Below are positions 6,263 to 11,533 of a stretch of DNA of 64,000 bases, in pieces. Position 1 is the first letter of the stretch. The number at the start of each line of letters is the position of its first letter. Made by a program: the position numbers and the translations under genes. The DNA lies in the NCBI GenBank assembly GCA_029259355.1, contig JAPDIZ010000008.1:1-64000 (forward strand), in the 5' to 3' direction. Below the pieces are notes generated by a model. The model saw only the letters and a program-made list of their open reading frames with translations, had not been told where the DNA came from and searched no databases. The stretch comes from Candidatus Bathyarchaeota archaeon (GTDB lineage Archaea; Thermoproteota; Bathyarchaeia; JAPDIZ01).

Positions 6263-7972
6263 ATGAGTTGGGAGGAGTTTCCGGGATACAATGTCGAGGA
6301 ACTTCACCGCCAAGTTCTGGAGATGGTTAGGTCGCTCCATGAGAGGCCTAACGTGAAGCACGTAGACGTAGATGAGCTTAGGAAGATGGCTGAGCCACAT
6401 GGTACTCAAACCAAGTACGGAAACTACGTATTCACAACCTGCGTGAGAAACCGAAGCGCAGCTCTCACCGTCTACATCGGCGGCCCAGACGTTATGAGGC
6501 CTCGGGACATGACGGAGAAGCAGAAGGACATAGTGATGAACGCTCCCCAGACGGTGGAGAAGCTCCACAGATACCTCGAGAAGGTCCCCATCGTGTGTAC
6601 TCAGAGGGTTATGTGCGACAGCGACGAGCTTAGCTTCCTCTGCACCCTCTACCTAACGGTTCACAGAAAAGACTGCGTAAGGCTTGGGTACATGTGGAGC
6701 CTCCTGCTCTTTGGCTTAGACAAGAAGAGGCCGAACAACCAAGAGATGTACTTGGTGCACGTCCCTGAGTGGCTGGAAAAGGATAGGCAGATACTGGTGT
6801 TTCCAGAGATAGGAGTTACCTATGTGCTTGGCTCAGACTACTTGGGCGAAACCAAGAAGGGCTTTCTCAGAATGGCTATGTGGTTTGCTAAGCAGAAGGG
6901 GATACTTGGGCTACACGCTGGAGCAAAAGTGATTAGGGCGCGAGACAGACGCGGTGTGGTGAAGAGGTACTCCATGCTCCTATTCGGGCTCTCGGGTACG
7001 GGAAAGACTACTCACACCTGCCACGACCACGGGTTGACGCAAGAGGGAGAGGGTATAGAGATCGTTCAAGATGATGTCATCTTCTTGAGGATAGATGGAG
7101 CAGGCTTTGGCCCTGAAAATGGTTTCTTCCTAAAAACCGACATAGACCCCTCGCTTCAGCCGCTGATCTGGAAAGCAGCCATAAAGCCTACCTCGGTTTT
7201 GGAGAACGTGCTGGTGGATTACCAAGGCAACTGCCACTTCCTAGACGAAACGCTTACGGGAAATGGGCGGGGCGTGTTTCTCAGAGAGTCCATAGACCCT
7301 GAGCACCTACACCCAAGCGTAAACCTACCACCGCTGAGCGAGCTAGACGGCATGGTGGTGATATTCATAACCCGAAGAAACACCGTTGTCCCCATCATGT
7401 CGAAGCTGACGCCTGAGCAAGCTGCCGCAGCCTTTATGCTTGGAGAATCCATAGAGACCACGGCCAGCGACCCAGCTAGAGCAGGCGAATCCGTCAGGGT
7501 TGTGGGCACAAACCCCTTCATCATAGGCGACCCCGTTGAGGAGGGCTTGTGGTTCTACGAGTTTCTCAAGCGCCACGGAGACAAGGTCAGGTGCTTCCTT
7601 CTCAACACTGGTGGAGTGGGCGAGATATTGCGCAAAGAGGGCAGAAGGGTTGTTGTCGAGCAGAAGGTGGTGAGGGTCGAGATACCCGAAACCGCTTCGA
7701 TAATAAGAGGTGTTTTGCGCGATAACATCGAGTGGGTTGAGGAGCCATACTTCGGAACCCTTGTCCCAGCAAAAGTCGATGGAGTCGATATGAGCAAGTT
7801 TGACTTAAGCAAGTACTACACCGAGGAGCAGATCCAGAACTATGTGCGCCAGCTCAAGCGTGAGAGAGCAGAGTACTTCGCCAAGAAGTACTCCGAGTTC
7901 CTCAAGCACATATCCATGGACGAAAAGCTCGCGAGATTCATAGGCTTGGACGAGTTTCCGATGAGCGCGTAG
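6263..7972 (+). CDS. pckA: Phosphoenolpyruvate carboxykinase (ATP-type)
   Basis: The enzyme interconverts oxaloacetate and phosphoenolpyruvate with a nucleotide, linking the C4 acids to gluconeogenesis. The 569-aa product contains the P-loop GLSGTGKTTHT at about residues 242-252, followed by the metal-site sequence IVQDDVIFL. Near the start of the C-terminal half are conserved blocks NGFFLKTDID and ETLTGNGRG. The P-loop wording (GLSGTGKTT) is that of the ATP-dependent family rather than the GTP-dependent one, although the N-terminal ~120 residues are divergent from bacterial PckA. ATG is preceded by its own TATA box. The next gene has a separate promoter, so PEPCK is likely monocistronic. Confidence 0.88.
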   Translation: MSWEEFPGYNVEELHRQVLEMVRSLHERPNVKHVDVDELRKMAEPHGTQTKYGNYVFTTCVRNRSAALTVYIGGPDVMRPRDMTEKQKDIVMNAPQTVEKLHRYLEKVPIVCTQRVMCDSDELSFLCTLYLTVHRKDCVRLGYMWSLLLFGLDKKRPNNQEMYLVHVPEWLEKDRQILVFPEIGVTYVLGSDYLGETKKGFLRMAMWFAKQKGILGLHAGAKVIRARDRRGVVKRYSMLLFGLSGTGKTTHTCHDHGLTQEGEGIEIVQDDVIFLRIDGAGFGPENGFFLKTDIDPSLQPLIWKAAIKPTSVLENVLVDYQGNCHFLDETLTGNGRGVFLRESIDPEHLHPSVNLPPLSELDGMVVIFITRRNTVVPIMSKLTPEQAAAAFMLGESIETTASDPARAGESVRVVGTNPFIIGDPVEEGLWFYEFLKRHGDKVRCFLLNTGGVGEILRKEGRRVVVEQKVVRVEIPETASIIRGVLRDNIEWVEEPYFGTLVPAKVDGVDMSKFDLSKYYTEEQIQNYVRQLKRERAEYFAKKYSEFLKHISMDEKLARFIGLDEFPMSA

Positions 7973-7982
7973 AGACCGATAC

Positions 7983-8004
7983 ATAGGTCAAAACCTATAT
8001 ATTT
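7983..8004 (+). promoter_or_regulatory. Inverted repeat over the TATA box of the PadR-fusion gene
   Basis: ATAGGT at 7983-7988, CAAA, and ACCTAT at 7993-7998 form a perfect dyad that runs into the TATA sequence CTATATATTT at 7995-8004. The box centre is 26 bp upstream of the ATG at 8026, so the mRNA is probably leaderless. A dimeric regulator bound here would block TBP. The encoded protein ends in a PadR-type DNA-binding domain, so autoregulation is a direct possibility. Confidence 0.6.
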
Positions 8005-8025
8005 CTCCCACCCCAGCGCTACCTG

Positions 8026-9474
8026 ATGCCTCAAGACTTTTCGCTAGTCTGCAGCCGATGCGGCCAAGCCTATGGTGTAGACGAAGCAATACTGTGCTCA
8101 CGCTGCGGAGGGGTTTTGTTCACCCAATACGACCAGCCACCCACTCCCCCAAGTTTTGCGCAAAAGCGCGGCGTAGGCATGTGGAGATATGCAGAGCTTC
8201 TACCCATAAAAGACTCGTCGAGAGCCATTACCCTAGGCGAAGGGGGGACACAGCTACACCTATGCAACAGACTGAGCGACCGCATTGGGCTGAGGCATCT
8301 CTGGGTAAAGGATGAGACCAAAAACCCCACCGGATCGTTTCTGGATCGCGGAGTGTCGGTAGAGATTTCCTGGGCTGTTGAGAAGGGGTATAGAGAGGTT
8401 TGCTGTGCATCCTCTGGAAACCTCGGCGCATCAGCAGCTGCTTATGCGGCTCGAGCGGGGCTTTTGGCGAGGGTATTCGTCCCATCTGATGTGGATGTAG
8501 GGAAGCTTTGCCAGATAATCGCTTACGGAGCAGAGCTTGAGGTGGCTAAAACCCATAGAGAAGCTCATGAGCTAGCTGAGAGCTGTGCAAAAGCCAGCTG
8601 GAGGAGGCTTCTGACGCCAGCCAACCCCTTCTTCCTTGAAGGCATAAAGACCGTAGCCTACGAAATCTGCGAATCCCTTGGGTGGAGGTACCCGGATTGG
8701 GTAGCTGCTCCCATGGGAAACGGTGGCTTGATCTCCATGATATGGAGGGGGTTCTGCGAGTTCAAGGAGTTGGGCTTGGTGAGGGATGAGCCGCCGAAGC
8801 TGATTGGGGTACAGGCACAGGGGTGTGCCCCCATAGTCGAGGCATACGATAGAGGCTTAGAGGAGGCGTTACCCACTCAAGGAATCGCATACCCCTTAGA
8901 CATAGCCGTCGAAAACCCCTTGGAGGGGTATCTCGCCCTCAGGTCGATTAGGGAGTCTGGAGGAGGGGCTGTAGCGGTTTCTCAAAAGGAGATGCTAGAG
9001 GCTGTGGCTGAATTGGCTAGGCTGGAGGGCATCTTCGCCGAGCCAGCAGCAGCCTCCGTCGTCGCAGCTGTTCGCAAGCTAGTCGAGGATGGCGCGGTGG
9101 AGAGGGGGGAGGAGGTTGTTTTGGTTGTCACGGGCTCAGGGCTTAAAGACCCAGAGGCTGTGCGTAAGATCCCTCTGAGCTCAAAGGCGCTGAAGAGGCT
9201 TTTCGCGAAGAAGGGGTTTGCTCCACTTACGCTAAGCGAAACCAAGAGGGCCGTGCTCAGGGTGCTCGGCGAGAGTGGGCCGATACATGGCTACGGAGTC
9301 TGGAAGGCTCTGCTTCACCGCTTCTCCATCAAGCTGAGCATACCCACTCTCTACCAACACCTGCAAGAGCTTGAGGAGATGGGGTTGGTTAGGAGGCTTC
9401 CACCCGCCAAAGTAGGTGGTAGGGTGAGGGTGTACTACGAGCTTACTCAGAGAGGAGCTGAGGCCTTGGGCTAA
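8026..9474 (+). CDS. Threonine-synthase-like protein without PLP lysine, fused to PadR-type wHTH
   Basis: Residues 9-27 form a zinc ribbon (C9, C12, C24, C27), as in archaeal threonine synthases. The fold-type II PLP domain follows: KDETKNPTGSFLDRG, then SSGNLGASAAAYAARAG (phosphate-loop region) and PMGNGG. In active enzymes the motif is SFKDRG and its Lys forms the Schiff base with PLP; here residue 106 is Leu (CTG at 8341-8343). From about residue 395 the chain continues as an 88-residue PadR-like winged helix (LSETKRAVLRVLGESG, PIHGYGVWKAL, SIPTLYQHLQELEEMGLV). An amino-acid-responsive transcription regulator built on a dead enzyme is the inference. An enzyme using an alternative lysine is not excluded. 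It precedes an MBL-fold gene by 54 bases. Confidence 0.8.
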   Translation: MPQDFSLVCSRCGQAYGVDEAILCSRCGGVLFTQYDQPPTPPSFAQKRGVGMWRYAELLPIKDSSRAITLGEGGTQLHLCNRLSDRIGLRHLWVKDETKNPTGSFLDRGVSVEISWAVEKGYREVCCASSGNLGASAAAYAARAGLLARVFVPSDVDVGKLCQIIAYGAELEVAKTHREAHELAESCAKASWRRLLTPANPFFLEGIKTVAYEICESLGWRYPDWVAAPMGNGGLISMIWRGFCEFKELGLVRDEPPKLIGVQAQGCAPIVEAYDRGLEEALPTQGIAYPLDIAVENPLEGYLALRSIRESGGGAVAVSQKEMLEAVAELARLEGIFAEPAAASVVAAVRKLVEDGAVERGEEVVLVVTGSGLKDPEAVRKIPLSSKALKRLFAKKGFAPLTLSETKRAVLRVLGESGPIHGYGVWKALLHRFSIKLSIPTLYQHLQELEEMGLVRRLPPAKVGGRVRVYYELTQRGAEALG

Positions 9475-9528: not shown

Positions 9529-10566
9529 GTGGAGCAGGTTTTCTCCAGAATATACCGCGCACAGCTCACGCTCCCGAAGACGTCTCTGAGAAGCTTAAAC
9601 TCCTACATAATAGAGGATGGAGATGGCTTCGCCATAGTTGACACAGGATTCAACTTAGACCAAACATACGAAGAGCTGGTTTCTCAGCTAGCTGAAGATG
9701 GCTTCAGGCTAGAGGATATCACCAAGATCGTGGTCACCCATTTCCACGGAGACCACATAGGGCTTACCCAAAGGCTTAGGAGGTTCTGCAGCCAACCCCC
9801 CATGCTCCACGAAGCCGAGATAGCGTTGGTTAAGCTAGCTGCTTCAGGGCTTGAAAAGAGGTTTGGCCCAATAGCTGAGTACATGAGGCTAAATGGAATG
9901 CCTAAGGAGCTAGTGGAGAAGGTTCTTCGACAACATCCCGCCATAAGGACTCGCTCCATAGACCCCAACCCAAACCCCTGGACACCGCTTAGAGACGGAG
10001 ACCTCATACAGATAGGTGGCTTCGAGTTTAGAGCTGTGTGGACTCCAGGCCACTCCCCCGGGCACGTATGCCTCTACGAGCCGAGGAAGAGGATTTTGAT
10101 AGCTGGAGACCACATCCTCCCCAAGATAACCCCAAACATAACGCGCTTAGCAGAAGACGAAGACCCCCTAACCAAATACCTCCAAAGCCTCAAGAAGGTG
10201 GAGGCTCTTGATGTAGACCTCGTGCTACCTGCTCATAGGTGGATATACAGAGACCACAGAGAGCGCATACGCCAGCTTAGGCAGCACCATAGGAGGAGGC
10301 TAAGCGAAGTGATAGAGATCTTGTCGAGGAAAAAGGAGGCAACCGCCTTCGAAATCGCTTCGGAGATGACTTGGGACGTAGACTACCCCTCTTGGGAAGC
10401 TTTCCCCGCTTTCCAAAAGCACTTCGCACACGGAGAAGCTCTCGCCCACCTCAAGCCCCTAGAGGATAGGGGGTTGGTTAGGAAGAAGCTTCGAGGAGAC
10501 ACCGTGTACTACGAGATGGTGAACCCTGTTTTTCCCGAAGACCTAGAGCCCCTCCTCAAGTCATAG
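9529..10566 (+). CDS. MBL-fold metallohydrolase with C-terminal helical/wHTH extension
   Basis: The metallo-beta-lactamase core is clear: the H-x-H-x-D-H motif reads H71-F-H73-G-D75-H76, followed by TPGHSPGHVCLY with the next His ligand, AGDHILP with the Asp ligand, and a late His in LVLPAHRW. The C-terminal ~90 residues (RKKEATAFEIASEMTW ... ALAHLKPLEDRGLVRKKLR) look like a winged helix, as in the LACTB2-type and related hydrolases. The substrate is unknown; a thioester or phosphodiester is usual. Start is GTG at 9529. It sits between the PadR-fusion gene and the DNA methyltransferase, 10 bases before the latter, and the three probably share a transcript. Confidence 0.85.
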   Translation: MEQVFSRIYRAQLTLPKTSLRSLNSYIIEDGDGFAIVDTGFNLDQTYEELVSQLAEDGFRLEDITKIVVTHFHGDHIGLTQRLRRFCSQPPMLHEAEIALVKLAASGLEKRFGPIAEYMRLNGMPKELVEKVLRQHPAIRTRSIDPNPNPWTPLRDGDLIQIGGFEFRAVWTPGHSPGHVCLYEPRKRILIAGDHILPKITPNITRLAEDEDPLTKYLQSLKKVEALDVDLVLPAHRWIYRDHRERIRQLRQHHRRRLSEVIEILSRKKEATAFEIASEMTWDVDYPSWEAFPAFQKHFAHGEALAHLKPLEDRGLVRKKLRGDTVYYEMVNPVFPEDLEPLLKS

Positions 10567-10576
10567 GGGGTCTGGA

Positions 10577-11533
10577 TTGGGCGGTCCAAGCGTCTTAGAC
10601 CTCTTCTGCGGAGCAGGAGGCTTCTCCAAAGGGTTTGAGGAAGCTGGCTACGATGTGTTGGGCGGAGTAGACGTAGACCCTGTGGTTGCCGAAACCTTTC
10701 GCCTAAGCTTCCCCAGTGCAAAGGTGGTGGTTCAAGACATCAGAGAGCTTTCTTCGTGGGATCTCGTGGAGAAGATAGGCGAAGAGCCTGAGGTCGTGAT
10801 TGGTGGGCCTCCCTGCGAGCCCTTCACAAGAACCAACGCCAAGAGAATGCGCAACCCCCTCGACAGACTCTACACAGACCCAGATGGCATGCTCATCCTA
10901 CACTTCATCAGGCTAGTCGGAGACCTAAGGCCAAAGGTCTTCGTGATGGAGAACGTGGTAGACGTAGCTGAGGGACCGCTTGCGGATGCGCTGAGAGCGG
11001 AGTTTAGGAGGGTTGGCTACAGCGAAATCTACTTCAACCTCTTGAGAGCTGAGGAGCACAACACCCCCTCGATAAGGAGGAGGCTGTTCATATCCAACGT
11101 CCGGATAAACCCTCCTAAGTCTCTGCGAAGGCTTTCAGTGCTTGATGCCGTAGGAGACCTTCCAAGCCCATACTCCATCCACGATATACCCAACCACGAG
11201 CCCACACCGCTTCCTCAGAAGAAGCTCAAGCGCGTTACTAGGGTTGGATGGGGAGGCGCTCTCATGAAGTACAGGGGAGCTACGGGCAAGTTCAAAAACT
11301 TCATGAGGCTAAACCCCTTCATGCCTGCACCACCCGTAACTGGCTTAAAGCGCTTCATCCACCCCTTCGAAGACAGGATGCTCACCGTAAGAGAGCATGC
11401 TAGGCTGATGGGCTTCCCCGACCACCACGTCTTCTTGGGAAATAGGGAGCTTCAGTACAACCAAGTAGGAGAAGCTGTCCCAGTCCCCCTTGCGAGGGAA
11501 ATAGCCGCTTACCTGCTCAATAAGGTTCTATAA
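10577..11533 (+). CDS. DNA (cytosine-5) methyltransferase
   Basis: The 318-aa protein shows the ordered C5-MTase motifs: I DLFCGAGGFSKGF, IV GGPPCEPFTRTN with catalytic Cys at residue 80, VI VFVMENV, VIII RRRLFI, IX-like MLTVREHARLMGFP, and X NQVGEAVPVPLA. It transfers a methyl group from SAM to C5 of cytosine in a specific DNA site. The target-recognition region between VIII and IX is short, so a four- to six-base site is likely. No restriction endonuclease gene adjoins it, so it may be an orphan or regulatory methylase. Start is TTG, 10 bases after the MBL gene. Its stop overlaps the convergent neighbour by 6 bases. Confidence 0.92.
   Translation: MGGPSVLDLFCGAGGFSKGFEEAGYDVLGGVDVDPVVAETFRLSFPSAKVVVQDIRELSSWDLVEKIGEEPEVVIGGPPCEPFTRTNAKRMRNPLDRLYTDPDGMLILHFIRLVGDLRPKVFVMENVVDVAEGPLADALRAEFRRVGYSEIYFNLLRAEEHNTPSIRRRLFISNVRINPPKSLRRLSVLDAVGDLPSPYSIHDIPNHEPTPLPQKKLKRVTRVGWGGALMKYRGATGKFKNFMRLNPFMPAPPVTGLKRFIHPFEDRMLTVREHARLMGFPDHHVFLGNRELQYNQVGEAVPVPLAREIAAYLLNKVL

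Follow-up and report, generated by a model that had tools for sequence, protein, structure and literature searches.

The fused gene in the window (the whole 64-kb stretch of DNA analysed) encodes a protein derived from threonine synthase that, with a probability we put at about three in four from sequence comparisons, acts as a PLP-sensing repressor of vitamin B6 uptake and synthesis and of its own gene. This assignment is favored because its relatives, spread through a large archaeal group, adjoin, or share DNA control sites with, genes for B6 import and synthesis, making a vitamin-B6 (PLP) sensing repressor the most likely function. In the proposed mechanism, the fold-type II domain, its lysine gone, would have reversible binding of PLP, or of a closely related B6 phosphate vitamer, as its means of reporting the level of free cofactor, which is possible if the PLP is not tied to a lysine. 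The C-terminal PadR winged helix would bind a palindromic CCTATATATAGG element beside the TATA box and, when enough PLP is available, shut off the gene itself, an ECF importer of vitamin B6 of the HmpT/PdxU2 type and, in genomes that have it, pdxST, the PLP synthase. We infer that the fused protein would bind DNA, that PLP would be its ligand and would act as a co-repressor and not as an inducer, and that B6 would be the substrate of the archaeal ECF S-component. The features of the locus are listed in Table 1.

Table 1. Features of the fused gene and its surroundings, in window positions
Feature	Position	Strand	Basis
Predicted operator, minus-strand reading ATATATAGG-TTTTGA-CCTATGTATCGG; includes the dyad at 7983-7998	7976..8002	-	Matrix from other genomes; top match of the window
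CCTATATATTT, probable TATA box, about 27 nt 5′ of the ATG	7994..8004	+	Sequence; inference
Fused gene (482 aa) for a zinc ribbon, a fold-type II PLP domain in which the Schiff-base lysine is missing, and a PadR-type winged helix	8026..9474	+	ORF, Pfam, NCBIfam, alignment
N-terminal zinc ribbon CxxC...CxxC, residues 9-27	8050..8106	+	Invariant cysteines in alignment
PALP (threonine-synthase-like) domain, residues 68-370	8227..9135	+	Pfam; closest solved structures are threonine synthases
Leu106 (CTG codon) at the position of the PLP Schiff-base lysine	8341..8343	+	Sequence and homologue comparison
Phe203, where canonical ThrC has an invariant Arg	8632..8634	+	Alignment, 12/12 canonical ThrC
PadR-type winged helix, residues 410-481	9253..9468	+	Pfam
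MBL-fold hydrolase, downstream, probably a mere neighbour	9529..10566	+	Pfam; neighbourhood comparison
C5 cytosine DNA methyltransferase, downstream, probably a mere neighbour	10577..11533	+	Pfam; neighbourhood comparison

Lysine loss and winged-helix fusion

The domain layout proposed in the earlier note is borne out in each part. The PALP match (PF00291, 235.6 bits) places the protein among the fold-type II PLP proteins, the C-terminal PadR domain (PF03551) scores 46.4 bits against a gathering score of 27, and the zinc-ribbon cysteines (C9, C12, C24 and C27) are present and are invariant among the seven close relatives aligned. An AlphaFold model, built with distant enzymes alone in its alignment, is weak (pLDDT 62) and was used for the fold only; its top Foldseek matches are threonine synthases (ThrC). 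Where threonine synthases have SFKDRG the motif reads NPTGSFLDRG, the leucine at residue 106 noted earlier being read directly from its codon, and the protein thus lacks the Schiff-base lysine of an active threonine synthase. A sequencing error at this codon was considered and rejected, because relatives also carry non-lysine residues here. The window genome (G000) also encodes an unfused homologue (G000:C1:331679-332824), which is complete, is 47% identical to the fused protein and has a normal SFKDRG motif.

A survey of 60 relatives and 398 genomes of the phylum Thermoproteota, in which genes were read, yielded 113 non-redundant homologues. The lysine is present in all 23 unfused homologues and absent from 82 of the 89 that have a full winged helix, with replacement by Arg (38), Leu (25), Ile (7), Thr (5), Met (4), and Ala, Val and Phe (one each). 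When a further Arg protein truncated by a contig end (L034) is counted as fused, 83 of 90 fused proteins lack the lysine that 23 of 23 unfused ones retain; loss of the lysine is therefore coupled to fusion, and the alignment of position 106 and the C-terminal PadR domain called for in the earlier note reveals a family trait. In a tree computed without the SFKDRG-type motif and without the winged helix, a branch with an SH-aLRT of 89 sets the unfused proteins apart; fusion requires one change and the lysine state two. The seven fused proteins that retain the lysine belong to one lineage, which is nested beside an Arg protein and may, from its position in the tree, have regained the residue. No compensating conserved lysine is gained elsewhere in the fused proteins; a lysine of this kind, restoring PLP binding, is among the findings that the earlier note had named as overturning its reading.

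The small lysine-bearing clade (L017, L019-L021, L025, L028 and L032), in which the residue is either kept or regained, also has a different TG/SS motif, and at the two of its loci examined (L141 and L149) the fused gene does not adjoin an ECF-type S-component (ECF-S) gene; these proteins are possibly bifunctional enzyme-regulators. We also note that two fused regulators coexist in one genome (G186; L102 and L127), one of the Leu/Ile type and the other of the Arg type, the latter adjoining an ECF-S gene.

Predicted operators and neighbouring genes

The promoters of the Leu-type clade have a common element, ATATATAAG-N6-CCTATATATAGG. A weight matrix trained on 21 promoters of other genomes, with the window left out, finds its best site in the 64 kb at the promoter of the fused gene (forward reading CCGATACATAGG-TCAAAA-CCTATATAT), with a score of 22.2; the next independent site scores 7.7, and the best of 443 control upstream regions 16.0. 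The perfect dyad ATAGGT-CAAA-ACCTAT reported earlier over this promoter is indeed exact, is the sole copy without mismatches in the 1.74-Mb genome and, by the matrix score, lies beyond chance; the element is slightly larger than the dyad and its placement is a little different. A simple-pattern search for the dyad in the same genome, allowing up to two mismatches, is uninformative, with 75 matches against 50 for the control. The distance between the TATA box and the ATG is consistent with a leaderless transcript, so that a protein bound to the predicted operator would be expected to block initiation. The earlier proposal of a converted, apparently non-catalytic enzyme, now a regulator whose operator covers the promoter of its own gene, is supported.

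The same element is found before genes for B6 import and synthesis. Across 33 genomes the exact 14-mer MCCTAYATATAGGY is present just 13 times, with seven copies at the promoter of a fused gene and two directly before unlinked ECF-S genes; four further matches (in G019, G269, G325 and G254) lie inside unrelated genes, and were rejected as operators and taken as chance. Matrix sites that score above all controls are present at the promoters of unlinked ECF-S genes (G225, G115, G001 and G007) and of unlinked pdxS genes (G243 and G080), and the predicted operator precedes pdxS either alone or shared. At the promoter of the window genome's own ECF-S gene, which is unlinked to the fused gene (G000:C1:613808-614479), the score is modest at 14.8, although it is the best in 16 kb (control p 0.007). 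The orientation of the element relative to the gene is the same in the window and in all of the unlinked ECF-S cases, its TATA-like part being the closest to the start codon. No common element was found in the promoters of the Arg-type clade, though the ECF-S neighbour is the same, and a search for RNA families at the fused-gene locus returned none.

An ECF-S gene directly adjoins the fused gene in 40 of 59 loci. In the Leu-type clade it usually stands upstream and is divergent, whereas Arg-type fused genes usually have it downstream on their own strand; in some Arg-type genomes an ABC ATPase pair comes next, with its direction unchanged. G019 has pdxS-pdxT, and G087 and G121 have pdxS, divergent from the fused gene. 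In one family (f10: G011, G023 and G307; loci L136, L137 and L150) a canonical thrC is divergent from the fused gene, which is of the Arg type and is followed by an ECF-S gene, with a long palindrome, GGTTTTTAGATCACTATAAAAACC, between the fused gene and thrC in L150. In one genus (L106, L107 and L109) the fused gene has UbiX-like flavoprotein and UbiD genes downstream. A protein of the AIRS superfamily, closest to HypE and then to ThiL, repeatedly adjoins ECF-S genes (e.g. L173:2231-3253 in G000:C1; cluster 2, in 14 loci), and may act in the salvage route as a vitamer kinase that has so far gone unrecognised.

At the window locus itself, the MBL-fold and methyltransferase genes follow on the same strand with gaps of 54 and 10 nt. 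The earlier note placed them in an operon that the fused protein would repress; they are not conserved as neighbours across the fused loci, and we do not retain them as targets. An ATP-type PEP carboxykinase gene (6263-7972), also on the same strand, lies upstream, 53 nt separating its end from the fused gene.

The gene content of the genomes, counted without regard to shared ancestry, differs with the presence of the fused gene. PdxS was found in 11 of 102 fused-gene genomes (at least 102 carry the gene) and in 175 of 296 others (Fisher p about 1e-18, kinship ignored), and this rarity points to probable B6 salvage in genomes that carry the fused gene. In the window genome PdxS was not found, and ThiC is present. 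The corresponding association for ThiC is far weaker (35 of the same at least 102 genomes and 145 of 296 others, p 0.01, kinship again ignored). Co-occurrence with lumazine synthase, an enzyme of riboflavin synthesis, cannot discriminate because the enzyme is missing throughout the whole class.

The candidate ligand and alternative readings

In the fused proteins with Leu, Ile, Met, Thr, Val or Ala at the lysine position, Asn132 is kept in 41 of 42, Thr369 in 42 of 42, and the glycines of the phosphate loop are retained, the last in agreement with the earlier note; in ThrC structures all of these contact PLP. Two residues invariant in 12 of 12 canonical ThrC proteins have been lost, Arg203 from all of the fused proteins and Ser198 from nearly all, and the window protein, with P198 and F203, accordingly lacks the substrate-phosphate residues of an active enzyme. 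The arginine is presumably the one that binds the substrate phosphate in ThrC structures. Retention of the PLP contacts together with loss of this arginine is the pattern expected of a cofactor sensor, and not of a substrate sensor or an enzyme.

The earlier note had left the ligand as either an amino acid or a PLP-like compound, and it is the PLP-like option that is favored. Sensing of threonine, O-phosphohomoserine or some other amino acid by a repressor of amino-acid genes would fit the threonine-synthase ancestry of the protein and the divergent thrC of family f10, but we consider it unlikely: Arg203 and Ser198 are not kept as such, the main linkage is to ECF-S and pdxST genes and not to threonine genes, and the thrC of the window genome lies away from the fused gene with no such link.

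Slightly less probable again is a regulator of some other vitamin, riboflavin or thiamin, imported by the ECF S-component. The Pfam family of the archaeal ECF-S proteins (PF07155) is named for riboflavin, lumazine synthase is absent from the class, and the AIRS-family protein that often adjoins ECF-S is distantly like ThiL. However, the closest solved relative of the ECF-S family is the B6 carrier HmpT (4HZU chain S; E 1e-20 for the family and 1e-10 for the window genome's copy), the solved riboflavin and thiamin S-components give no match to the archaeal proteins, the predicted operator stands before pdxS, the co-occurrence with ThiC is weak, and the sensor domain has a PLP fold. When the window genome's ECF-S is aligned with HmpT, the pocket residues Glu41, Tyr120, Asn140 and Gln143 are all conserved; HmpT H84 differs, being Lys in the archaeal ECF-S. 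Pyridoxamine has been extracted from HmpT/PdxU2 of Lactobacillus brevis and identified as its bound substrate (PMC4860826).

Finally, that the protein is still an enzyme working without a Schiff base, with the winged helix as a secondary regulatory or dimerisation domain, is very improbable, for although D107, R108, E339 and K374, like most of the fold, show high conservation and curated databases name the family threonine synthase, the residues that substitute for the lysine vary freely (L, I, M, T, V, A and R), which is ill-suited to a catalytic role, and a complete, lysine-bearing ThrC is encoded in the same genome.

Relation to known regulators and enzymes

The PLP-sensing repressor proposed here works like the bacterial PdxR/MocR regulators, in that an enzyme fold that uses PLP is joined to a winged helix and the regulon comprises pdxST and B6 transport, which for the archaeal family is indicated by linkage and the shared element alone. 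It is not a member of that group. PdxR combines an aminotransferase fold with a GntR helix and binds the pdxST/pdxR intergenic region (PMC5320631); PdxR/MocR proteins have an N-terminal GntR and a fold-type I aminotransferase domain, whereas Pfam finds only PALP and a C-terminal PadR in the archaeal protein, whose domain is of fold-type II and has no Schiff-base lysine. Archaea are stated to lack the MocR family (PMC5320631), and for most species B6 transporters have been called unresolved (PMC9997740); the fused protein and its ECF-S neighbour offer a testable candidate regulator and a testable candidate transporter across a whole phylum.

On the best explanation, the fused protein would be an archaeal equivalent of bacterial PdxR that is built on another fold. 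We further consider it probable, if with somewhat less assurance than for the window protein, that these widespread lysine-less fold-type II pseudo-enzymes are the missing B6 regulator of the Thermoproteota, binding free PLP without a Schiff base and repressing an unrecognised archaeal ECF importer of B6 and pdxST, that they evolved independently of bacterial MocR/PdxR, and that PRK05638 is mislabelled. PLP enzymes of two unrelated folds would then have been reused convergently as cofactor sensors, and a site that holds its cofactor permanently would have become a reversible sensor once the anchoring lysine was removed. Archaeal ThiR, an HTH joined to an enzyme-derived ThiN domain, similarly reuses a biosynthetic enzyme domain as a vitamin sensor, but differs in fold, vitamin and regulon.

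To its likely ancestor ThrC the fused protein is related by fold, zinc ribbon and most PLP contacts, and it differs in lacking the lysine and the substrate-phosphate arginine and in having an extra DNA-binding domain. The earlier note's view that the arrangement had not been described stands in part: in the literature searched, outside which most subscription papers fall, we found no paper on a threonine-synthase-like regulator and nothing on the lysine loss or a regulatory role, but the fusion itself is captured by the model NF004170/PRK05638 as 'threonine synthase'. This model of 442 positions covers both PALP and winged helix and matches residues 8-479 of the window protein, which at 292 bits falls below the curated cut-off of 421 and is not a member. 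The members above the cut-off that were read (L039-L050) have Arg at the PLP lysine position and a winged helix at the end, so the enzyme name is, on these features, probably wrong, and the curated model would be propagating a wrong function.
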